Part shown: one piece after another, positions 1 to 38,026 of the stretch | How the letters are laid out: each line of letters opens with the position of its first letter | Position numbering within the stretch: position 1 is the stretch's first letter | Origin: a virus | Virus record (IMG/VR): IMGVR_UViG_3300031576_000179 | Coordinates: 1-38,026 of that record | Length of the DNA: 38,026 bases | Direction: 5' to 3' (one strand) | The notes under the pieces: generated by a model | The model's database searches: none | Told to the model about the DNA's origin: nothing | The model's input: only the letters and a program-made list of their open reading frames with translations | Made by a program: the position numbers and the translations under genes

Positions 1-127
1 ACCAATCAAGCCACTCTTCGGGGGAACCATGAAGATTCGATATTCCGGCATGATCTAAAATTATAGATCCTTCCTTGCCGGGATAGGAACGCAAAGCCCT
101 TCCTATTTGCTGAACATAAAGAGCTTT
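1..127. repeat. Terminal direct repeat, left copy (assembly overlap of a circle)
   Basis: These 127 bases are identical to 37900-38026. A length of exactly 127 is a common maximum assembler k-mer, so this is most simply a circular assembly graph written out with its overlap, not a biological terminal repeat. The helicase frame continues through the join, which supports a real circle or a circularly permuted genome. The unique genome is then 37,899 bp. Confidence 0.95.
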
Positions 128-5291: not shown

Positions 5292-5708
5292 GTGGAATTA
5301 ACTCTCCAAAGACTTGAAGTTGCCGAAAGGCCAACCTTAGGTTTTCTGGAAATTAGCTCTGCCCCTTCTTTTTCTCATCATCTTTTAACCCTAGAACTTC
5401 CCTTCCGTGATAACCAAAAAAATATCTCCTGTATTCCCAAAGGGACTTACGAGTGTGTACGAGTTTATAATCGTGCCATCGGGTTCCCCCCTAGAAGGAT
5501 TCCTATTACATATGAAGTCAAGGATGTTCCCGGAAGGTCTGGCATTCTTTTTCACGCGGGCAATTTTGTTTCCAATACGCAGGGCTGTATTCTCCTTGGT
5601 CTCTCCCTTTCCAAAGAACCCTACATCATTCTAGAATCCAGGCAGGCCATGGTGAGGTTTATAAGTCTTCTCAAGGGTCATGACGGGGGATCTCTTAAAA
5701 TAGTCTAA
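5292..5708 (+). CDS. DUF5675 family protein (lysis-module position)
   Basis: This 138-aa protein has the DUF5675 hallmarks: ELPFRDNQKNISCIPKGTY (about residues 36-54), then TYEVKDVPGRSGILFHAGN and TQGCILLG. The invariant Cys in SCIP, the His of LFHAGN and the Cys of GCILLG resemble a catalytic arrangement, and the family is often found beside holins. A peptidoglycan-related role is plausible but, to my knowledge, unproven. No other endolysin-like gene is visible, so this is the best endolysin candidate. The start is GTG at 5292 with only a weak AGAGGCGG upstream. An in-frame TAG at 5283 prevents any earlier start. It is the first gene of the late arm. Confidence 0.8.
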   Translation: MELTLQRLEVAERPTLGFLEISSAPSFSHHLLTLELPFRDNQKNISCIPKGTYECVRVYNRAIGFPPRRIPITYEVKDVPGRSGILFHAGNFVSNTQGCILLGLSLSKEPYIILESRQAMVRFISLLKGHDGGSLKIV

Positions 5709-5740
5709 CCAAGAAGATTAAGCTTCTTTATAGTGAGATT

Positions 5741-5974
5741 ATGACCAAAGGACAGGCCTCTCAAGTAGTGGCTATTTTCATAATTGTTATTGGTCTTCTT
5801 TCTTCTTTTGGCTACGCTTCCATTAAGCGCTCCTTGGACAAAGTTGACGAACATGATTCTAAAGTTGAGAGGCTAGAGGTTTCTTCTACTGAGGTCACAA
5901 GGAGGCTAGATCGCCTTGAAGAGAAGATTGATCGTATTTGGGATCGCCTTTCTAATTCCGGTCACCAACATTAG
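5741..5974 (+). CDS. Small membrane-anchored coiled-coil protein (spanin/holin-like)
   Basis: This 77-aa protein has one N-terminal transmembrane helix (residues about 8-27, VVAIFIIVIGLLSSFGYASI) followed by a heptad-rich coiled coil (LDKVDEHDSKVERLEV, LDRLEEKIDRI). This topology is that of inner-membrane spanins and of some holin accessory proteins. It lies between DUF5675 and a secreted protein whose first 20 codons overlap its 3' end in another frame. A spanin pair with the embedded lipoprotein at 6331 is possible but is inferred only from topology and position. Confidence 0.7.
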   Translation: MTKGQASQVVAIFIIVIGLLSSFGYASIKRSLDKVDEHDSKVERLEVSSTEVTRRLDRLEEKIDRIWDRLSNSGHQH

Positions 5975-27863: not shown

Positions 27864-29714
27864 ATGGCAACTAGAGCTGAAGAGATACAAAAAGCTATTA
27901 AAGAAGCTCAGAATCGTTTGGCAAAAGCTACCAGCAAGGCTGCCAAAGATTCCATAAAAGCCAAAATTGCCAATCTACAAAAACAATTGGCTGATAATAA
28001 GCCCGTTCAGGCAGAAAAGCCCCCACCTCCACCCCCTGGCGAAACACGACCCGATCCCTATTACGTCCCTCCCTATGTTGGGCCAGGAGGAGAGGTGATC
28101 CCTGCTAGTGGAACCCCCCCTCCACCTCCTCCACCACCACCTCCTCCCGGTGAGCCACCACCGCCTGAGGATAAGGATGAGGACGAGGACGAAGATGTCT
28201 TTTCCGAAAAAGAATCTGAACTTGAAGATTTAATTGCAAAGGCCCTCGCGGCTGGAAAAACTAATAAAGTAAATCGGTATAGAAAACAATTAAAAGACCT
28301 TCGAGCGGGGAAGCCGCCCCCCGGCGAGCCACCTCCCGGGGGACCGCCTCCTGGGGGGGCGGGCGGAAGGCGCAAAGGAAAATCTCGCACCATGGACGAA
28401 GTTCTAGAGGATTTTAGGAAAGCCCAAGAAGTAAGCAAGGAGATGGGCCTTGAAGATCCCCTTGATAGATTAAGAACTGGACCAACGGAAGAGGAGCAGT
28501 TTCTTACAGAATCTCAACGGGCCTTAATGGATCCCCGTTTGTCCTCTTATGTAGGTAAAAGATCGGAACAACAAAAACGTCTTCTTGAAGACTTAAGGGG
28601 TAGTGCGGAATGGGGCGGCCAAAGACAGGAAGAAACCAAAAATCTTCTTGCTCAATTACAGGCAGAGACGGGCACTGCTGGGGCCAGATCTCCCGAGCAG
28701 CAAAGACTTCTTGAGCAATTAGGCGGCATGGCCGAAGGGGCGGGGAAAAGAAGTGAGGCTCGACAGAAATACTTAGATACGCTTCAAGGAAGGGCTGACA
28801 AGGCAGGAGAGAGAACCCAAGAGATGACAGAGACGATAGCTCTTATGAAGGGCGGTCTTGCTGGGCTTAATGCCCAGGAAAATCAAGCCCTAAGAGAGCA
28901 ATCCATGAGAGAGGCCCAAAGGCAGCAGCAAACAGCCCAAAGGGACTTGGCCACCACTCAGGCTAGGGGTGGAGTACGCGGTGCGGCAGCGAGTGCTCAG
29001 GCCTTACAAGCTGGCAAGCAGTTTGGCAAGTCCGCTCTTGAATCTGAACAAGATTTGCTTCTTAGAAATGTTGATATTCAAGATGAAAGACGCCGAGCCT
29101 TTGCTCAGCTTTTAGGGGGAGAGGAAAGAGCCGAGTTTGGTCGTGGAACTGAAGCCCTTGGTATGTATGGGGGCGAGCTAAGGGGAGCGGAAGAGACCGA
29201 GTTCGCTCAGAAAGCCCAGATGTTTGACCAATATGGTAGAGCGCTTTCTGCGCAAGAATCGGCTGAAGCTGCAAGGAAGGGAGAAGCTTTTGATAGATAT
29301 GGTAATAAGCTTTCTGCGGCTCAAGCTGCCGAGTTCGAAAGAAAAAATATAGGACTTCAAGCTTATGCAAAGCAGCTTGGGGGACAAGAACAGGCAGAAT
29401 TTGAACGTCCCCAATCTGTAAGAGCAGAAATGGGTCAATTCCTTGGTCAAAGAGGAAAAGAACAGCTAGCCAGGGAACAAACCAATCTTGAACAGCAAGC
29501 AGCCGAAAGAGCTTCAAAGCTTGCCGCTCTTACTGGCATTACTGGTTATGGTGCAGCTAAGGAGAGTACGGGAAGACAGTATAGATTAGCCAGGCAAGCT
29601 ATGAGACAACAAAGAAGGGGCGGCGGCGCTGGCCAGCAGCCACCGGGAGTCAATCCTAATCAAGCTTACATCGATGAGATAGAAAGACTTGGTAGAGAGA
29701 GGGGTTATTTATGA
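27864..29714 (+). CDS. 616-aa ejection-type protein with two tandem repeat arrays
   Basis: Mostly helical and Gln/Glu/Ala/Arg-rich, with a disordered Pro-rich segment at about residues 50-115. It has five 21-residue units (residues 233-337) and four 22-residue units (424-511), and a linker with ARGGVRGAAASAQALQAGK, a texture I associate with podovirus internal virion proteins. It begins with a coiled-coil MATRAEEIQKAIKEAQNRL. Next to a transglycosylase-bearing protein and a glycine-zipper protein, it likely forms part of the DNA-ejection apparatus. There is no membrane segment. The stop overlaps the next gene's ATG by 4 bases. Confidence 0.65.
   Translation: MATRAEEIQKAIKEAQNRLAKATSKAAKDSIKAKIANLQKQLADNKPVQAEKPPPPPPGETRPDPYYVPPYVGPGGEVIPASGTPPPPPPPPPPPGEPPPPEDKDEDEDEDVFSEKESELEDLIAKALAAGKTNKVNRYRKQLKDLRAGKPPPGEPPPGGPPPGGAGGRRKGKSRTMDEVLEDFRKAQEVSKEMGLEDPLDRLRTGPTEEEQFLTESQRALMDPRLSSYVGKRSEQQKRLLEDLRGSAEWGGQRQEETKNLLAQLQAETGTAGARSPEQQRLLEQLGGMAEGAGKRSEARQKYLDTLQGRADKAGERTQEMTETIALMKGGLAGLNAQENQALREQSMREAQRQQQTAQRDLATTQARGGVRGAAASAQALQAGKQFGKSALESEQDLLLRNVDIQDERRRAFAQLLGGEERAEFGRGTEALGMYGGELRGAEETEFAQKAQMFDQYGRALSAQESAEAARKGEAFDRYGNKLSAAQAAEFERKNIGLQAYAKQLGGQEQAEFERPQSVRAEMGQFLGQRGKEQLAREQTNLEQQAAERASKLAALTGITGYGAAKESTGRQYRLARQAMRQQRRGGGAGQQPPGVNPNQAYIDEIERLGRERGYL
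28560..28874 (+). repeat. Five tandem 21-codon repeats in the 616-aa protein
   Basis: The unit follows R-(S/T/Q)-x-E-x-x-x-x-L-L-x-x-L-x-G-x-A-x-x-A-G. Examples begin RSEQQKRLLEDL, RSPEQQRLLEQL and RSEARQKYLDTL. The copies have diverged in DNA but keep the exact 63-base period, so spacing is under selection. Confidence 0.7.
29133..29396 (+). repeat. Four tandem 22-codon repeats in the 616-aa protein
   Basis: The unit follows E-(F/A)-x-R-K-x-x-x-F-D-x-Y-G-x-x-L-S-A-x-Q-x-A. Copies two and three share FDQYGRALSAQ and FDRYGNKLSAAQ. The period is exactly 66 bases. Confidence 0.7.
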
Positions 29715-31435
29715 CACATTCATATCCATATGGTGACTATGCTTCAGGAGTTCCTGACTATCCCTATAGGAGCCTGATTTTTGATGAAGCAGGGGAATAT
29801 GGAATAGATCCCAACGAGGCAATAAGGCAGGTCTTTGCAGAGTCTTCTGGAGATCCTTATTCTATAGGGGAACTCGGAGAGCGGGGGCTTATGCAGCTTT
29901 TACCTTCTACCGCAGCCGAAGAAGCTCAAAGACAAGGGATTTTTTCTCCCAATTTATTTGACCCGGAAACCAACTTAAAACTTGGTCTTGGTTATGCTAG
30001 GAAGCAACAAGATGAATTTGGTCCACTTGGTCCTATTGGTTATAATTGGGGGGAGGGAAACTTAAGAGGCGCCCTAGCTCAAGCCGCAACCACAAGAGAG
30101 CCCATCTCTTCTTTTATTCCACCAGGCCCTGAAACATACGCAAGTAAGATTAAAGGCGAAGATGTTTTTTCCATGCTACCTAAAGGGGAAGATAAGAATA
30201 TCCAAACCCTTGAAACCACTTCCGCTTTAGGTGGCTTTGGTGGAGGGGCTGGGGGTGGAGAAGAAGAGGAGGGATTAACTCCCCGAGGAAAAAGAATTAG
30301 AGATCTCTCAGAAGAGATGAAGAGCTACCAAGAAGAGAAGGAGAGGCTTGAAGAGTCCCTTAAATCACCCGCCCCTCTGACCGCTGGTGAGTCTTTTGGC
30401 ATGATAGGCATACCAGCCCTAGGAGTCCTTTTGGGGGCCGCCCTGGCGGGCAAGAGGGGGGCTCTAGCGGGCACCCAGGCTGGCCTGGCTGGTCTGGAAG
30501 TGGCCCAGAAGGGAGTAGCGGAAAGAGAGAGACAGGTTAGGGAGATTGGCAAAGAAAGGTTCCAAGATCTTACCAGACTCCAGCAGGAGAGCAGGGGAGA
30601 GATTAGAAGGCAGGAAGAGGCGCAGCTTGATTTTGGGGAAAGGTCGGTTAGAGAAGACAGATATTTATCCAACCCTTTGGTTAAAACAGCAATAGCCAAG
30701 ATACGGAGCGGAAAAGAGGATACTGTCACCCAGGAGGAACAAGAGGCCCTGGCCAGTTCCTCACTGGAAGAACAAAGGCTTGTTGATATAGCAAGAAAGG
30801 AGCGTGGTGTTGAGGGGCGCTTCGGGAAGGCTCAAGATCTTAGAGAGCGGCAAAACCAGATGAGAATAGAACAAGGGATCCCCGCTCCCTATAGGGCCGT
30901 GAGCCCAGGAGCCAAAAAGCTTAGACCGGAAGATGCCGCAGAATATTCAAGTCGGTATGCGGGGGTCCAATCCATGATCCGCTCAATTGAGGATATGGCA
31001 CAAACCGGCAGATTTGCTTTTACACGTGAAGATGCAATTCTAGCGGGGGCACTCTCTGGCATAATAACAAATCAATTCAGAGAGGCCACAAAATCTGGTG
31101 CCAACTTCACAGGAACCGAACAGGGATTTATTAAAAAATCAATCATGCCCAAGCTGGCCGCCGGAAGAACTTGGGAATCCATTCTAGCCACCCTGACGGG
31201 AAGAGATCAGGAGATGTACTTACGAATAATCCCCAAGGCTTTAAACGCTGGTATTGATGCTGAGCTTATAGCCCTTGGTTATACAAGACCTGGGGGCGAA
31301 TACAACGAGCGCCAATGGAAGGAATTAGATAGAGATTATGGGGGAGCATCTCCCATTGCCGGGACTCCGCTCGTGGGAAAGGAAGAAAAAAAAGCCAAGA
31401 TTTTAGCAGAGATTAAAGCAAGAAGGGGTAAATAA
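29711..31435 (+). CDS. Ejection protein with N-terminal lytic transglycosylase domain
   Basis: This 574-aa protein has residues about 25-135 as an SLT-type domain: AIRQVFAESSGDPYS with the catalytic Glu44, GLMQLLPSTA (59-68), ETNLKLGLGYARKQQ, and an aromatic GYNWGEGN. It would cut the glycan strands to let the tail tube or DNA pass the cell wall, like T7 gp16. Residues about 225-260 are hydrophobic and Gly/Ala-rich (MIGIPALGVLLGAALAG). The rest is helical. It overlaps the 616-aa gene by 4 bases and is followed one base later by the 649-aa gene. Confidence 0.8.
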   Translation: MTHSYPYGDYASGVPDYPYRSLIFDEAGEYGIDPNEAIRQVFAESSGDPYSIGELGERGLMQLLPSTAAEEAQRQGIFSPNLFDPETNLKLGLGYARKQQDEFGPLGPIGYNWGEGNLRGALAQAATTREPISSFIPPGPETYASKIKGEDVFSMLPKGEDKNIQTLETTSALGGFGGGAGGGEEEEGLTPRGKRIRDLSEEMKSYQEEKERLEESLKSPAPLTAGESFGMIGIPALGVLLGAALAGKRGALAGTQAGLAGLEVAQKGVAERERQVREIGKERFQDLTRLQQESRGEIRRQEEAQLDFGERSVREDRYLSNPLVKTAIAKIRSGKEDTVTQEEQEALASSSLEEQRLVDIARKERGVEGRFGKAQDLRERQNQMRIEQGIPAPYRAVSPGAKKLRPEDAAEYSSRYAGVQSMIRSIEDMAQTGRFAFTREDAILAGALSGIITNQFREATKSGANFTGTEQGFIKKSIMPKLAAGRTWESILATLTGRDQEMYLRIIPKALNAGIDAELIALGYTRPGGEYNERQWKELDRDYGGASPIAGTPLVGKEEKKAKILAEIKARRGK

Positions 31436-31436
31436 A

Positions 31437-33386
31437 ATGGCAGACCTCTCCTTAGAAGATTTTACCCAAGAAGAATTAGCTAGCTTATCAGAAGAAGAGA
31501 TTGATAGCTTGGCAGAAAGGTTGGCCTCGCAAGAGGATTCGAGCGGTGACCGCGATCTTAGCTCATTAAGTAGAAGCTTTGGTGGTTCTTCTGATGAACC
31601 TTCTTATATTAGTGATAGTTCGGGACAGATCCTTCCAAGTGATTTAACTAGGCCCTCTGGCGCCCCCATCCTTCCTACCCTGGGAGCTATTGGAGGAGGT
31701 CTCGCAGGTAGTCTAGCAGGCCCTATTGGAATGGCAGCGGGCGCAACACTAGGAGAGTCGGGCGGTAAGGGACTAGAGCGTTGGATAGCGGGAGAACCTG
31801 GCGTTTTCGGAGAAGAGCTTTTATCTCTCAACCCACTAGAAAATCCTGCTATTTTGAATTTTGCTATCCCTGGTGCTTTAGGAGCAATAAGCAAGGGAAC
31901 CAAAGCTTTAGGCCGGGGGGCGAGGAGAATGGCCCAGATGGCGGAAGAGTCTGTTTTTGAGGTTCCTACAGCACTCAAGAAAAAGGAAATTGCTAAGGGC
32001 CTTCAAGAGGTTACTGAGGAAACTGGCGCAATTACTCTTAAAACAGACATTCAAAAAGCGCTTGATGCCTCTAAACAAGAGGGTATCTTTTCTGGTAGAA
32101 TAGATCCTGAGAGGATTGAGTTTGCTAGAGCAAGTAAAGTACAAGAGCTTTCTGCTCAATTAGAAGAGGAGTTGGATGTACTGGATAGAGCTGTTGGTAT
32201 TCATAGTGGTCGTCTACTGGGTGAACGTGTTCTTCCCTCGCTAGATGGTGCTTCCGAGTATGTAAGCACATATCGCGCTTCTCCTGGCGCAAAGATAGAA
32301 CTGCAAAAAAGATTAAATGAGTGGAGAGAGCTTATTGGACAAAGCTGGGATGGTAGCCTATCAGATCTCCATCGTTTCAAAAAAGAAGTGTACGAAAAGA
32401 TAAACTATAAGCGTCTTGAAGATCCCAATCTCATAGAGCAAGAAAAGGCAGTCTTAGATAGCTTAGTTGCCAAAGGGCTTAAAGAAACAATTGAACAAGA
32501 AGCTGATAGGCTTATACAAGATCCTGTAAAAAAAGATTTAGTTAAAAATCTAAATGAAAGGCTCTCTAACCTTCTCCAAATCAAACCCATCACTGTTGCC
32601 GCTGCAGCTCAAAAACCAACTCTGCAACAAATGATGGCTACAGGAGCCTCTGCCGTAGTAGGAAGCGGATTGGGTCCCTTAGGTACGCTAGGAGGCGGGC
32701 TTGGTGCTTACCTTGCTCAAACCCCGCAAGGAAGGCTACTGGGTAGGAACCTTCTAGAGGAAGTAGCAAATAGAACTCCAGGGATAGCTTCTCTTTTAGA
32801 AAAAGGATCCTTGCCGCTTATGGGCGCTAGTGCTGCGGGCAGGAATTTACCAGTTAATCAAGAAACCCCAGAGGGCCTGCGAAACTTGCTAGAACAGGGA
32901 GGTGGCGGCGGTGGGGGTGGGCCAACATTACCGACCGAAGTTCCGCTTTCTATCGAAGAGCTGCCAAGAATGAGTGGTGGATGGACTCCGGAAGTTGTTT
33001 CTAGCTTTGCACAAAAGATGATAGGTGGCGGGAAAGAAGAAGTAGGTAAGGGATTGATTTTAAAAATGGTCGAAGCCCAAAGAAGCCAGGATTTTGGAAA
33101 GATGCAGAAGCTTGTTGCTGATGCCGCTAAACTTTTCCCTGAATATTTCGAGAGGGGCGTTGGGATAGATGGGAAGATTTTTCATAAAGAAGATCAGGCA
33201 GAGTACATAAGCCAGCTAGAAAGAGCGGTAAAAAAGGGGGTACTTGATTCTACTTTTCTGGGCCGTCAGATGAATGCGTTTTCAGATCCAAACGATAGCA
33301 GTGTGCTTTCCATGCCGGTTCAGGATAGGGCAGGATCGCCAGCCAGACGAATGTTGCAAGCAGTGCCAAGGCCATTGCCATACTAG
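31437..33386 (+). CDS. 649-aa ejection-type protein with glycine zippers
   Basis: The N-terminus is a disordered acidic region (LSLEDFTQEELASLSEEEID). A glycine zipper follows at about residues 75-105 (LGAIGGGLAGSLAGPIGMAA) and a second at about 400-425 (GASAVVGSGLGPLGTLGGG). Between and after them are long helices. Membrane-insertable zippers within a large helical protein, as the last gene after a transglycosylase protein, fit an internal virion/ejection protein. A polyglycine linker lies near residue 488. It ends the late arm; its TAG overlaps the stop of the first converging minus-arm gene within CTAG. Confidence 0.65.
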   Translation: MADLSLEDFTQEELASLSEEEIDSLAERLASQEDSSGDRDLSSLSRSFGGSSDEPSYISDSSGQILPSDLTRPSGAPILPTLGAIGGGLAGSLAGPIGMAAGATLGESGGKGLERWIAGEPGVFGEELLSLNPLENPAILNFAIPGALGAISKGTKALGRGARRMAQMAEESVFEVPTALKKKEIAKGLQEVTEETGAITLKTDIQKALDASKQEGIFSGRIDPERIEFARASKVQELSAQLEEELDVLDRAVGIHSGRLLGERVLPSLDGASEYVSTYRASPGAKIELQKRLNEWRELIGQSWDGSLSDLHRFKKEVYEKINYKRLEDPNLIEQEKAVLDSLVAKGLKETIEQEADRLIQDPVKKDLVKNLNERLSNLLQIKPITVAAAAQKPTLQQMMATGASAVVGSGLGPLGTLGGGLGAYLAQTPQGRLLGRNLLEEVANRTPGIASLLEKGSLPLMGASAAGRNLPVNQETPEGLRNLLEQGGGGGGGGPTLPTEVPLSIEELPRMSGGWTPEVVSSFAQKMIGGGKEEVGKGLILKMVEAQRSQDFGKMQKLVADAAKLFPEYFERGVGIDGKIFHKEDQAEYISQLERAVKKGVLDSTFLGRQMNAFSDPNDSSVLSMPVQDRAGSPARRMLQAVPRPLPY

Positions 33387-33574: not shown

Positions 33575-33888
33575 CCAGTTATCGCATCGAGATCAATATT
33601 AATTAAATCTTTTCTAGGAGAAAGTCTTAGCGCATACCAAAGGAAATTTAGAGTATGTTTATAAAATTGCCGTTGCTTCTCCTTATTTAAGCCTTCTCCT
33701 GGTCCCCTTTTAAGCTTAAGAAGCATGTTGTCAACAACTTCTTCAATCCTTTCTTTTAGATCAAAATCTAAAGAGCCGGGAAGCCAGGTTTCCCAATCAT
33801 CTTCACTTCCCATCTTTTTATCAAATTCAGTCTTCAATTCTTTTTTCTCTTTTAGCGTCAGTGCATACTTACCCATTTTCAATCTCAT
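33562..33888 (-). CDS. 108-aa phage protein of unknown function
   Basis: The start at 33888 overlaps the DUF1064 gene's TGA (ATGA), or four codons later at the second Met. It is helical and charged (LTLKEKKELKTEFDKKMGSEDDWETWLPG, then LKERIEEVVDNMLLKLKRGPGEGLNKEKQRQFYKHTLNFLWYAL). It belongs to the tight cluster nuclease, this gene, 63-aa gene at the end of the minus arm. No family is recognised; it may be a replication accessory given its neighbours. Confidence 0.6.
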   Translation of the reverse strand: MRLKMGKYALTLKEKKELKTEFDKKMGSEDDWETWLPGSLDFDLKERIEEVVDNMLLKLKRGPGEGLNKEKQRQFYKHTLNFLWYALRLSPRKDLINIDLDAITGWRN

Positions 33889-34205
33889 ATTTCTTTAATT
33901 TTTATGCCATAAATCGCTTCCATGAGAAGCCTCTTGATAGTGAAAAGTCGATATGGCACGTTATTCTTACAACCCTTTACATCTTCTATGATCATCTTCC
34001 CGTTTTCTATATAGGCGAAATCTCCCACATAAGTACAAAGCTTTACTTCATTTAGTTCTAATTTAAATCTCGGCTGTAGTTTTAGGCCGCTTATTTCTCC
34101 AGCATCTTGTAAGATTTTTAATTCACTATATCTCTTTGCTTCCTTCTTTGAAGCAAAGTTATGACCATCAATTACGGTCCTTCTTGCTCCATACTTATTC
34201 CACAT
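33885..34205 (-). CDS. DUF1064 family nuclease-like protein
   Basis: A phage endonuclease-like family of the PD-(D/E)xK type, sometimes annotated as Holliday-junction resolvase. From MWNKYGARR it reads VIDGHNFASKKEAKRYSELK (helix), then LQPRFKLEL, YVGDFAYIENGKMIIEDVKG. The last part supplies Asp62, Glu74 and Lys77, the expected D, ExK catalytic residues. I start at ATG 34205, which gives an 11-base overlap with the upstream gene and the usual family start; a GTG at 34265 would add 20 residues overlapping that gene. It would process replication or recombination intermediates with ERF and the helicase. Confidence 0.8.
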   Translation of the reverse strand: MWNKYGARRTVIDGHNFASKKEAKRYSELKILQDAGEISGLKLQPRFKLELNEVKLCTYVGDFAYIENGKMIIEDVKGCKNNVPYRLFTIKRLLMEAIYGIKIKEI

Positions 34206-34584
34206 AGCGTGTTGGATAGAAAAGTTCTTTTTTAGCTTTTGCAATTCGGTACTGTTTATATCCACCGTAGTTCTTTTCTAAATATTGCTTAAACGTGAGA
34301 GGCCCCTTGGGAAATTTAAATTCCTTAACATAATATTTTGTGTCTTTATAGTTCTTTCTCTTTGGCTGAAGAAAGATTTCTATTTCTGGCTTATAATAGG
34401 CTTCTTCCGCGATGAGTCTCGCGTCCGCGCCAAAGAGAGTGCATTCAAATTCTGCCCCGTAGTCAGCGCGAAATATGAAATCAATATAGGGAATGCCGCG
34501 TTTGGTACGAGATGAATATATAATTGATTCTAACATGCCAAAGTAATGAAGAAGAATGGGGGGATTCTTAGATCTTCTGGCCAT
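34195..34584 (-). CDS. 129-aa protein, possibly OB-fold single-strand binding type
   Basis: MARRSKNPPILLHYFGML, then beta-rich GIPYIDFIFRADYGAEFECTLFGADARLIAEE and EIEIFLQPKRKNYKDTKYYVKEFKF. The strand order with C-T-L-F-G-x-D-A-x-x-I recalls OB-fold SSB proteins (cxxfgxxA motif), but no diagnostic residue is conclusive. It lies between the GH5 gene and DUF1064. Its ATG is directly preceded by one arm of a 9-bp hairpin and lacks a ribosome binding site at normal distance. Confidence 0.5.
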   Translation of the reverse strand: MARRSKNPPILLHYFGMLESIIYSSRTKRGIPYIDFIFRADYGAEFECTLFGADARLIAEEAYYKPEIEIFLQPKRKNYKDTKYYVKEFKFPKGPLTFKQYLEKNYGGYKQYRIAKAKKELFYPTRYVE

Positions 34585-34629: not shown

Positions 34630-35484
34630 CTATATGTTCAATAGTCTTCTAATCCAGTTATGATGATTTCTTGCCCAGCCCTCTTTTAAAACATCCAGGA
34701 CTTTGCCCTGGGGATTCCAGATCTCAGATTCAAACATCGCGTGATATGTCCAATGCCAGTGCCATTTTTCAAAGATGGATATACAGTCTCCAATGTAAGC
34801 CGCCCTAGATGCCTCATCCGCATAATTGCAGACAGAGAATTCACCCACATATATAGGCTTCTTGGTCTGTTTTTGAAAATTCCTAACGGGTAAGAGAAGT
34901 TTTTTTAACCTTTCCTTGCTAAGATCCTGATCGGGGTATTTTCTTTCTTTTATATATTGGTAGAGTTTTTGATGGGTGAATGCGAGTGGCAGATACATAT
35001 GGACCTCATACCAACAATTAGAGAATCCGTAATCTTGAGCGCTGAGAAAATGGGGTGGATCTGAGAAGGGGAAAGTGAGAATTAATAGCTTCTTATTATC
35101 TTCTTTTCTAAGAAATTCCCCAGTCTCTTTCATTATTGTGCGGATATGGCCAGAGGATCCTTTTGGTTCATTTAGAATTCCATAGCCATGAATTGCAGGC
35201 AACCCCTTGATATGTTGTAAGATTAACGTCCAACCTTTTATCGCAGCACCCTTGCCGAGAGAGGCTGGAACACGATGAAGATCCACAATAAATTTAATCT
35301 TGCCTTCAAATTCTTTCGCAAGGGAGACAAGCTTTGTGGAGTGTTCAATAACCTGCTTTCGCCATAAAGATTCATCTTCGGTTTGATACGGTGCTATTTG
35401 AAAACGTATAAGATTTATCTTTAATGATAAAAGATTTTCGATCTGTTCTTTTGTAGCCTCTGAGCCTACTTGAATGCCGCGCAT
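34630..35484 (-). CDS. Glycoside hydrolase family 5-type enzyme (cellulase/mannanase-like)
   Basis: This 284-aa TIM-barrel protein shows GH5 landmarks in order: first strand RGIQVGSE, LIRFQI with the conserved Arg, FIVDLHR (His70), GYGILNEPKG with acid/base Glu106, WYEVHMYLP (His162, Tyr164), KPIYVGEFSV with nucleophile Glu215, and WHWHWTYH (from Trp241) near the end. GH5 enzymes cut beta-1,4-glucans or mannans. There is no signal peptide, and the gene is in the replication/accessory arm, not among tail genes, so it would act in the cytoplasm or after lysis. The start lacks a clear ribosome binding site and overlaps a 27-codon ORF, suggesting coupled translation. Confidence 0.88.
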   Translation of the reverse strand: MRGIQVGSEATKEQIENLLSLKINLIRFQIAPYQTEDESLWRKQVIEHSTKLVSLAKEFEGKIKFIVDLHRVPASLGKGAAIKGWTLILQHIKGLPAIHGYGILNEPKGSSGHIRTIMKETGEFLRKEDNKKLLILTFPFSDPPHFLSAQDYGFSNCWYEVHMYLPLAFTHQKLYQYIKERKYPDQDLSKERLKKLLLPVRNFQKQTKKPIYVGEFSVCNYADEASRAAYIGDCISIFEKWHWHWTYHAMFESEIWNPQGKVLDVLKEGWARNHHNWIRRLLNI

Positions 35485-35549
35485 TTTTCGTTGGCCAGGG
35501 TGAATAAAATTAGATGCTCTATAAGTTCTTGTTCAGGGCTTTTAGTCAT
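35466..35549 (-). CDS. 27-aa ORF overlapping the GH5 start
   Basis: ATG 35549 overlaps the stop of the preceding 20-codon ORF (ATGA). The product MTKSPEQELIEHLILFTL is a probable amphipathic helix followed by ANEKCAAFK, and it ends 16 bases inside the GH5 gene. It could mainly serve to deliver ribosomes to GH5. Confidence 0.35.
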   Translation of the reverse strand: MTKSPEQELIEHLILFTLANEKCAAFK

Positions 35550-35608
35550 GGCTTATATAATGCTAGAAACATGCCGGCGCCGTCGTTGTGGATTTTTATT
35601 TTGAGCAC
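35546..35608 (-). CDS. 20-aa ORF in the GH5 leader chain
   Basis: GTG 35608 preceded by GAGGAAG encodes VLKIKIHNDGAGMFLALYKP. It overlaps the 17-codon ORF upstream by 13 bases and the 27-codon ORF downstream by ATGA. Confidence 0.3.
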   Translation of the reverse strand: MLKIKIHNDGAGMFLALYKP

Positions 35609-35649
35609 AGCTCTTCCTCATAGATATAAATCACACGCCTAGCTTCCAT
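35596..35649 (-). CDS. 17-aa ORF in the GH5 leader chain
   Basis: ATG 35649 has a perfect AAGGAG with 4-base spacing and encodes MEARRVIYIYEEELCSK. The start region is copied almost exactly from, or to, the start of the pentapeptide gene at 3898. Confidence 0.4.
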   Translation of the reverse strand: MEARRVIYIYEEELCSK

Positions 35650-35708
35650 AATTCTCCTTGGTTAATTGGAAGGCCCAACGGGCCGCCAGCTTCTGGCTTC
35701 CTTTCTAT
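35631..35708 (-). pseudogene. Remnant of a second copy of the 36833-37201 gene start
   Basis: Read from ATA 35708, the frame gives ERKPEAGGPLGLPINQGEL, against ERKPEVGGSLGLPIRQGDV at the start of the 37201 gene. Several differences are silent third-base changes (GAG/GAA, AGA/AGG, AAA/AAG, CAG/CAA), the signature of past protein selection. The start is ATA instead of ATG, and a stop follows after 25 codons. A second-copy fragment truncated by the micro-ORF chain is the simplest view. Confidence 0.6.
35667..35688 (+). repeat. Dispersed hairpin element, copy 4
   Basis: TGG-AA-GGCCC-AAC-GGGCC-G-CCA. It lies inside the remnant gene, and is in the same plus-strand orientation as the late-arm copies although the local genes are on the minus strand. 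Confidence 0.7.
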
Positions 35709-35733
35709 TTTTCATTGCTCACCATTTATCCCT

Positions 35734-36789
35734 CTATGATTGTTGCGCAAAATCTTCTGGATCAATACCACCATTCATCCACGTTGCTGCCTTCCTAGCG
35801 TCTTCTATCTCGGGAGGAGTTCTGTTCATGTGAAGATGTCCTGTTGAGGGACAAACCATCTTTAGCAAATGAATAGGTTCCACATCAGCGTTCTCAATGC
35901 GAAGCAGCTCGTAGTGTCCGGAAGTTTTAGAGTAATACTGAGAGATTTTCCTGCCACCCACCTCATGGCAAATACGTTCGTACCCGATCTGCTCAATAAA
36001 AAGCTTTTTAAGCTCGGCATGCTCTTCCGTAAGAAGCCACTTGGGATCCCAGTCTTTAACGCATTTAGAGCCATATTCCTCCGGTAGTTGCATGCCATGC
36101 CAAAAATAAAAACCAAAGCCATCAGAGTACTCGATAGCTTTTCTGCCTTCAGCGTGAAGTTCTTTATTCTCGTCAAGGCTTATAAAGGTATGCTTTTCAG
36201 AGAAAATCACACACTCTTTAAAAGGCCACCACCAGTTACAATTGTGGGCAAGCTCAATAAAGGGCTCAACCTGAGCACACTCTTCTATACCAATCTCCCT
36301 CCAAAGGAACTCGTGCATCCCTACCCACGCTGCGTCGTGGTTGCCGTAAGCACAAGTATAAAGTTGTGCAGAAGTCTTCTCCTTTGGTAGCTCTTTGAGT
36401 CTTGCCACAAGAGATTGAACCAGGCCGGGATCTGCGGAGTCTTGACTATTCTCCTTATCCTTAGTCGTTCTAAAGCCATATTCTTCTTCCATGTAAGTAG
36501 CTATTGCCCTGGGAAGAGCAGCTAATGTTTGGTCGTCAACAAGCGGCTCCGTATAGACATCCAACAGAGCGGCGCATAGGACTCCCGCCATGGGTGACGG
36601 AAGGGTGATGATACATTCGGGGAAAACCTCGTTAATGGCTTTATAAATTTTTTTACCAGCTTCCGCCATTCTGTTTTTACCGCCGGGAGTCGAGGACAGG
36701 GCGATTTCCTGCCATTTTTTTTCGTAGTCTTTAATCTTATCTTTATTAGCTTCCAGCAACGCTTCTATTTCTTTTTCTGATTTACCCAT
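35734..36789 (-). CDS. DUF6745 domain protein
   Basis: About 351 aa from ATG 36789 (MGKSEKEIEALLEANK); a TTG at 36840 would add 17 residues that overlap the upstream gene and a hairpin. The central domain matches the DUF6745 pattern: FIELAHNCNWWWPFKECVIFSEKHTFISLDENKELH, then AIEYSDGFGFYFWHGMQLPEEY and, later, a region with LFIEQIGYERICHEVGG. The N-terminal part includes GKNRMAEAGKKIYKAINEVF. The function of DUF6745 is, as far as I know, undescribed. It is paired with the next gene upstream, its habitual partner, which points to a two-component unit. Confidence 0.75.
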   Translation of the reverse strand: MGKSEKEIEALLEANKDKIKDYEKKWQEIALSSTPGGKNRMAEAGKKIYKAINEVFPECIITLPSPMAGVLCAALLDVYTEPLVDDQTLAALPRAIATYMEEEYGFRTTKDKENSQDSADPGLVQSLVARLKELPKEKTSAQLYTCAYGNHDAAWVGMHEFLWREIGIEECAQVEPFIELAHNCNWWWPFKECVIFSEKHTFISLDENKELHAEGRKAIEYSDGFGFYFWHGMQLPEEYGSKCVKDWDPKWLLTEEHAELKKLFIEQIGYERICHEVGGRKISQYYSKTSGHYELLRIENADVEPIHLLKMVCPSTGHLHMNRTPPEIEDARKAATWMNGGIDPEDFAQQS

Positions 36790-36804
36790 TTTCCCATCCC
36801 AATC

Positions 36805-36820
36805 CGCCGCGCTCGCGGCG
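36805..36820. other. GC-rich hairpin between DUF6745 and its partner
   Basis: CGCCGCG-CT-CGCGGCG: seven G/C pairs with a 2-base centre, in the 43-base gap between the two genes. It could set their expression ratio. There is no T-run. Confidence 0.5.
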
Positions 36821-36832
36821 AGAGTGCCCCGG

Positions 36833-37201
36833 TTAATCAATTACTCTCTTCCAGCCCTCTGGCGTATGCTGTTTTTGGATCCTCACCTCATACTCACCCT
36901 CTGGGATTTCCAATGTCTTATGTCTGTCAGCACCCGGAATAGGAATCTCCCTGAGTTCATGCGCCTTTCCGTGCGCAAGTTTGGCGCTTTTAATTACCTT
37001 GATATAGGTCTTGTCATTGAACTTGAAAAGCTTAACCGCATCTGGAGTAATAAAGGTGTGCTGATGTCCTGTCAGCTCCCCGTAAGCTAGAGGCTCAAGG
37101 GGTTTCTCTTCTCCTTCAACCTTAGATGCCGGGACCAAAATCACATCTCCCTGTCTAATTGGAAGGCCCAAAGAGCCGCCAACCTCTGGTTTTCTCTCCA
37201 T
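36833..37201 (-). CDS. DUF6745-partner protein (RQGDV...GE-TGH-H type)
   Basis: This 122-aa protein has a strong ribosome binding site (CTAAGGAG) before ATG 37201. The motifs are GLPIRQGDVILVPAS (about residues 12-26), YGELTGHQH (40-48), an AHGKAHELREIPIPG-type segment, then IPEGEYEVRIQKQHTPEGWKRVID at the end. From memory this His-rich small protein habitually travels with DUF6745 genes in phages and bacteria. The histidines (GHQH, AHGKAH) could bind metal. Role unknown. The first 20 codons have a decayed twin at 35631-35708 and contain hairpin copy 5. Confidence 0.75.
   Translation of the reverse strand: MERKPEVGGSLGLPIRQGDVILVPASKVEGEEKPLEPLAYGELTGHQHTFITPDAVKLFKFNDKTYIKVIKSAKLAHGKAHELREIPIPGADRHKTLEIPEGEYEVRIQKQHTPEGWKRVID
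37159..37182 (+). repeat. Dispersed hairpin element, copy 5
   Basis: TTGG-AA-GGCCC-AAA-GAGCC-G-CCAA, inside the first codons of the partner gene. The outer stem has changed to TTGG/CCAA on both sides; the inner stem has one C-A mismatch; AA/G is unchanged. Confidence 0.65.
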
Positions 37202-37548: not shown

Positions 37549-38026
37549 TTTTTTGTTCTCTAACTATGAGTTTATTAAAGAGAGGTAGCCTCCCTTGCTC
37601 AATTAAACTAGTCAAAACATGGTCAATACCATTTCGATTTAAAGGGTTGCTGGCTAGCTTTATAACCATTTCATCAAAAAGACAATTATCGGAAGGATTC
37701 TCTGCATATTCTTCTATTTTTTGAAGATCGGCCGTAATGGCCAAGCCAAATTCCGGGACTTCTCTTAACTTCTTTAATATATCAAGCTCAAATTCTCGCG
37801 TCGGTGAACCTTGTTTCCTTATTTTCCCATTACTCAATTCCTTATCATATTGAGAGGGCCCATTTCCCTCTTCGAAGTGATACATTCCGTCTGCCAGTGA
37901 CCAATCAAGCCACTCTTCGGGGGAACCATGAAGATTCGATATTCCGGCATGATCTAAAATTATAGATCCTTCCTTGCCGGGATAGGAACGCAAAGCCCTT
38001 CCTATTTGCTGAACATAAAGAGCTTT
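37529..38026 (-). CDS. SF2 helicase, C-terminal part (continues from base 919)
   Basis: The C-terminal 124 codons of the helicase (37529-37899), plus the 127-base duplicated join. It begins inside motif VI (RALRSYPGKEGSIILDHAGI) and continues with a helical tail that includes HGSPEEWLDWSLADG, FELDILKKLREVPEFGLAITADLQKIEEYAE and KNDTRAR. It is an edge artefact, not a second gene. Confidence 0.9.
   Translation of the reverse strand, partial: KALYVQQIGRALRSYPGKEGSIILDHAGISNLHGSPEEWLDWSLADGMYHFEEGNGPSQYDKELSNGKIRKQGSPTREFELDILKKLREVPEFGLAITADLQKIEEYAENPSDNCLFDEMVIKLASNPLNRNGIDHVLTSLIEQGRLPLFNKLIVREQKNDTRAR
37900..38026. repeat. Terminal direct repeat, right copy
   Basis: Identical to 1-127; see the left copy. 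Confidence 0.95.

Follow-up and report, generated by a model that had tools for sequence, protein, structure and literature searches.

The window analysed here is the whole 38,026-base sequence of the virus record IMGVR_UViG_3300031576_000179, and a gene on its minus strand (34630..35484) had been predicted from the sequence alone to encode a GH5-type glycoside hydrolase. The locus raises the questions whether the protein is a GH5 member, whether the gene belongs to the phage, from which bacteria it could have come and what function it could have in infection. Our reading as a whole, held at roughly even confidence, is that this is a real phage gene encoding a stripped catalytic barrel of the clade of TtEnd5A (Thermogutta terrifontis endoglucanase), which would be released at lysis and cut a beta-linked polysaccharide surrounding the host.

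Genomic setting of the GH5 gene

End comparison detected a 127-bp terminal direct repeat (1..127, identical to 37900-38026), so the genome is apparently complete, ~37.9 kb, and circular or terminally redundant; a helicase gene runs over the join of the genome ends. The window phage is apparently podovirus-like. Its plus strand carries the genes for terminase, portal and major head protein, and a minus-strand arm has the helicase, Erf, Gam-like and DUF1064/Holliday-resolvase genes. Three large proteins of the structural arm (27864-33386; 616, 574 and 649 aa, the second with an SLT transglycosylase domain) are possibly podovirus internal or ejection proteins, and a gene pair at 5292-5974, for a DUF5675 protein and then a small protein of membrane type, is possibly a lysis module.

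The sequence-only reading had placed the GH5 gene away from the structural genes, and it indeed lies in the minus-strand early/replication arm, 1.2 kb beyond the last structural ORF, the two being oriented towards each other. On one side it is flanked by the DUF6745 gene and on the other by a small gene leading to the resolvase. The upstream neighbour (35734..36840, minus strand) encodes a 368-aa DUF6745 protein, a phage protein of unknown function (phrog_31813; E 1.7e-27 and 3e-28), the C-terminal half of which is common to the Microcystis phages LMM01 and MaMV and to a Manatee Spring phage. The DUF1064/Holliday junction resolvase gene (phrog_190; 33885..34265, minus strand) is located downstream. 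The GH5 gene is thus found where an auxiliary metabolic gene is expected, between the phrog_31813 and phrog_190 genes of a genome with terminal repeats.

The GC content, third-position GC (GC3) and codon usage of the GH5 gene match those of the other window genes. Together with the flanking phage genes and the terminal repeats, this composition identifies GH5 as a resident phage gene, and a contaminating host fragment as its source is very unlikely. Host DNA misjoined to the phage contig, or a provirus edge, would agree with the otherwise bacterial distribution of the GH5 clade; we nevertheless give this explanation hardly any weight, in view of the 127-bp repeat, the phage genes on both sides, the phage-like composition, the lack of any other recognised bacterial metabolic gene, and the identity of only 25-40% to any bacterial gene found.

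Reading frame, start codon and leader

On the minus strand, one ORF that opens with the ATG at 35484 and closes with a stop at 34632-34630 encodes 284 aa, a single (beta/alpha)8 catalytic barrel according to the PF00150 and TtEnd5A matches and the AlphaFold model; the plus strand of 34630..35484 is broken by many stops. A weak point of the start ATG is that no Shine-Dalgarno-like sequence precedes it, but upstream of it no ATG, GTG or TTG start occurs before an in-frame stop. The first residues, Met1-Arg2-Gly3, fall on the L-R-G that is conserved in strand beta-1 of the bacterial relatives. A signal peptide was not seen, in agreement with the initial prediction: a crude hydropathy test gave a low maximum (1.1) over the first 80 residues.

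Six-frame reading of the 249-bp leader between the DUF6745 and GH5 genes (35485..35733, minus strand) detected only tiny ORFs. The first, of 17 aa, has a good AAGGAG site in front of it and shares the GH5 frame, though four stops separate it from the gene; the second, of 27 aa, overlaps the GH5 start. They could be leader peptides, coupling elements or remnants.

The phage protein is a GH5 family member

The Pfam profile PF00150 (Cellulase/GH5) matched the phage protein with E 2.7e-13 and 50.5 bits, the gathering score being 23.5 bits; PHROG and NCBIfam gave no match for it. The best solved relatives by sequence were the TtEnd5A chains 8b3y, 8ag9 and 8anx (E 1e-23 to 2e-24, with 2e-24 for 8b3y and 8ag9), followed by Thermotoga maritima Cel5A and Clostridium thermocellum CelC. 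An AlphaFold model from the single sequence reached a pLDDT of 54, and the alignment-based model was used instead (mean pLDDT 91.2; eight beta/alpha repeats, with beta-1 starting from residue 2). Structure comparison of this model (VIA-align) ranked TtEnd5A 8ag9 first (Z 32.4, rmsd 2.2 A, 277 residues), while the other GH5 endoglucanase entries had Z at most 26.7. The predicted fold thus falls inside GH5 and not outside it, and the phage protein is confirmed as a real member of the family.

Active site

The catalytic landmarks proposed from the sequence, Glu106 in NEP, Glu215 in GEF and His162, proved exact to the residue. Glu106, the predicted acid/base of N-E-P after strand beta-4 (codon 35167..35169; this and the following codons on the minus strand), aligns with a TtEnd5A residue that is Glu in 8ag9 but Ala in 8anx, an entry titled E329A. 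Glu215, the predicted nucleophile of G-E-F at the end of strand beta-7 (34840..34842), aligns with the Glu of the T. maritima Cel5A GEF in 3amc, where 3azr has GAF. Both aligned residues were thus mutated in crystallographic work. Loss of this pair in close homologues would have spoken against the assignment; both glutamates are kept in 79 of 80 bacterial relatives, and the remaining one is gapped there. His162 in V-H-M-Y (34999..35001) and Tyr164 (34993-34995), both in strand beta-6, are present in all 80. Further conserved GH5 residues are in place, namely Arg27 in beta-2, His70 in beta-3 and Asn105 in beta-4.

Thus seven of the eight classical GH5 residues are intact in the phage protein, and there is no frameshift or stop. 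At the eighth place, usually the beta-8 Trp of GH5, sequence alignment puts His248 (34741..34743) opposite the Trp of the T. maritima Cel5A YWE. Since 78 of the 80 bacterial relatives also have His there, His248 appears to be a trait of the clade and not damage, and the lack of Trp does not exclude GH5.

TtEnd5A has the same barrel and catalytic Glu pair, and it shares with the phage protein the motif Y-x-V-H-M-Y-x-P-x-A-F-T-H-Q and the His at the place of the beta-8 Trp. Within the aligned C-terminal two thirds the two proteins are 34% identical; for the barrel, the figure is 28-29%. TtEnd5A differs in its length of about 500 aa, with an N-terminal part and a full beta-3 loop that the phage protein lacks, and in the two positions that are changed by R251F and W253S in the phage. 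CelC of C. thermocellum (1cec) and T. maritima Cel5A (3amc) have the GH5 fold, the catalytic residues and the F-T-H-Q motif in common with the phage protein but are only about 20% identical to it, and Cel5A has the classical beta-8 Trp.

Bacterial relatives and origin

A motif-bearing alignment, used to scan bacterial and archaeal genomes, detected 80 loci with a GH5 of this clade, nearly all in MAGs of Verrucomicrobiota, Lentisphaerota, Kiritimatiellota, Planctomycetota and Armatimonadota. The clade motifs HMYxPxAFTHQ, IYxGEFS and WxWxYHA are all present in the phage protein. Across the domain its identity to the bacterial relatives is 25-35%, and local matches reach about 40%. The relatives are mostly encoded by frames of ~500-650 aa (usually ~550) with the barrel in the C-terminal half and, in most of them, ~200 aa or more upstream of it. 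A strong hydrophobic N-terminal stretch was found by a crude test in 61 of the 80, suggesting that the bacterial proteins of the clade are apparently exported or secreted. The phage protein, in contrast, is a bare barrel without the signal peptide and N-terminal module that are usual in the TtEnd5A-type clade, an architecture that is common there and not a strict definition of the clade.

We infer that the barrel was transferred from a Verrucomicrobiota/Planctomycetota-type bacterium to the phage. In the tree, the phage branch groups with Verrucomicrobiota/Kiritimatiellota rows, a placement that is without support and prone to long-branch artefact, and for this reason no donor is named. Three genomes of ~4-4.5 Mb (G001, G024 and G027, in the family of L002) have 23-27 TtEnd5A-type GH5 matches each, a striking expansion in uncultured Verrucomicrobia-type bacteria.

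Divergence of the phage form

In the tree with the bacterial relatives, the phage branch measures 4.3 changes per column, whereas the median is 0.21. Conservation in the bacteria is 95% or more at 50 columns, and the phage protein keeps 33 of these, including the catalytic ones among them; at ~30% identity, this is as expected under selection for catalysis. After strand beta-8, the R-E-W of the clade, with its near-invariant Arg and Trp, is replaced by F251-E252-S253 (R251F and W253S), the loop after beta-3 is shorter by about 18 residues, and the C-terminal segment also differs from the bacterial relatives. These changes suggest that the substrate or the activity may have changed. As the rim loops and residues of a TIM barrel bind the substrate, the phage enzyme may act on a substrate different from that of TtEnd5A, with the chemistry kept.

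The extreme branch length, the absence of W253 and R251 (both near-invariant elsewhere in the clade), the loss of the beta-3 loop, and the start codon without a Shine-Dalgarno sequence could also be read as signs of a GH5 barrel without glycosidase activity, having another role such as binding, or of a decaying gene. We consider this distinctly unlikely, because decay would not selectively spare seven of the eight classical GH5 residues and the His248 of the clade in a frame without frameshift or stop. Judged by its preserved residues, the phage GH5 is probably an active enzyme.

Viral GH5 enzymes and phage relatives

Published activities of viral GH5 proteins were counted in favor of an active phage enzyme. 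A GH5 from permafrost soil viruses of Stordalen Mire has endomannanase activity (PMC6786970), and is similar to the window gene as a phage-encoded accessory GH5. A rumen viral GH5 cellulase, encoded on an incomplete contig, is active on carboxymethylcellulose (PMC10465536); its best bacterial relative is a protein of an Atopobiaceae MAG (45.9%), which points to a lineage other than that of the window-phage GH5. The GH5 cellulase gp095 of Erwinia phage S6 (Schitoviridae), also active on carboxymethylcellulose, was linked to adsorption with cellulose as the receptor (PMC9544554). These active viral enzymes make the earlier description of the gene as an unusual accessory gene an overstatement.

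The S6 example brings up a virion-associated depolymerase that clears polysaccharide at adsorption, as proposed for that phage. Like S6, the window phage apparently combines a podovirus-type particle with a GH5 gene, and structure search of viral proteins showed that the Erwinia phages phiEaP8 and pEp_SNUABM_01 carry GH5 proteins too. However, gp095 is a two-domain, adsorption-linked protein, the Erwinia phage GH5s of the viral structure library exceed 700 aa and share just 13% identity with the window protein, and the top-ranked phage GH5 proteins of that search are about 700-870 aa, as opposed to a single-domain bare barrel in the window. Of the matches listed in that search, those named as glycoside hydrolases include several annotated phage GH5s, all with only 9-14% identity to the window GH5, and a search of 50,697 annotated phages gave no sequence relative. 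The gene lies outside the structural operon and on the opposite strand, and neither the structural location nor the virion-binding domain of a tail-spike or capsule depolymerase was found for it. A virion role is therefore quite improbable.

No GH5 relative was detected in IMG/VR viral contigs with the protein's own peptides, two alignments and a DNA motif for HMYxPxxFTHQ; these pattern scans are strict, so that absence there is weak evidence. Plasmids gave two weak matches of 21-25%. The one hit of these scans (L082) was rejected as a phage relative; its GH5 is a fragment, lying at the end of a 4-kb contig that also bears a recombinase. The terminase, DUF6745, major capsid protein (MCP) and portal queries detected no sister phage in IMG/VR viral contigs.

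Portal and MCP relatives stand side by side in G097, a genome from the class of a Lentisphaerae MAG, which also has five GH5 genes of the clade. On its contig (L107:13491-18022), portal, scaffold-like and major-head genes stand in the order of the window phage and are only distantly similar. In Pseudomonadota-group genomes, one of 299 has an MCP match about as strong as that in G097, and the host assignment from the G097 portal and MCP pair was rejected because of this equally strong match.

Discussion

We propose that a phage acquired the catalytic barrel of the TtEnd5A clade long ago from a Verrucomicrobiota/Planctomycetota-type bacterium, and that the signal peptide and N-terminal module were stripped from it. 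The enzyme would be made in the cytoplasm alongside the early/replication genes, would not be exported by the usual route, and would accumulate until it is released at lysis. As a retaining GH5 endo-beta-glycanase, it would then hydrolyse the beta-linked polysaccharide matrix around the host cells, aiding the spread of the progeny. Action outside the cell after lysis is, in our estimate, evenly balanced against action elsewhere, and we give similar weight to a beta-1,4-glucan- or mannan-like class of substrate. Of the beta-glucanase and mannanase offered by the initial prediction, either may apply: the closest solved relative bears the name of an endoglucanase, but the loops and two beta-8 residues are different. 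The roles offered there, attack on host storage or capsule precursors and help with spread in a biofilm, would likewise be candidates.

The same absence of a signal peptide, and the location of the gene in the replication arm and not in a structural or lysis block, would suit an enzyme that works before lysis, within the host cell. It would trim a glycan of the cytoplasm or membrane, or a precursor of a polysaccharide, and so alter host metabolism or surface assembly. The bacterial relatives are apparently exported, and the loss of the export signal might itself be adaptive. This intracellular role is unlikely in our assessment. Polymerisation of beta-1,4-glucan- and mannan-type polymers is normally directed outward and these polymers are rarely cytoplasmic, the window has no recognised partner gene for glycan metabolism, and signal loss is equally compatible with release at lysis. 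Less probable again is the proposal that a secreted enzyme was taken by the phage, its export signal and N-terminal module removed and its cleft reshaped, and that it acts on a host glycan in the cytoplasm of the infected cell, in a takeover or in a block of surface-polysaccharide assembly.

For the lysis-released enzyme that we prefer, the novelty is modest, since phages with GH5 are already known; what is new is the bare-barrel form and the lineage, that of the TtEnd5A clade. With this gene, a very divergent minimal GH5 in a complete genome joins the short list of well-placed viral polysaccharide hydrolases. The clade to which it is tied has multiplied heavily in uncultured polysaccharide degraders of Verrucomicrobia type, and this provides a lead to the donor and perhaps to the host. 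If active, the phage GH5 would be a small natural TIM-barrel catalyst, and an example of an exported bacterial enzyme turned into one delivered by lysis.
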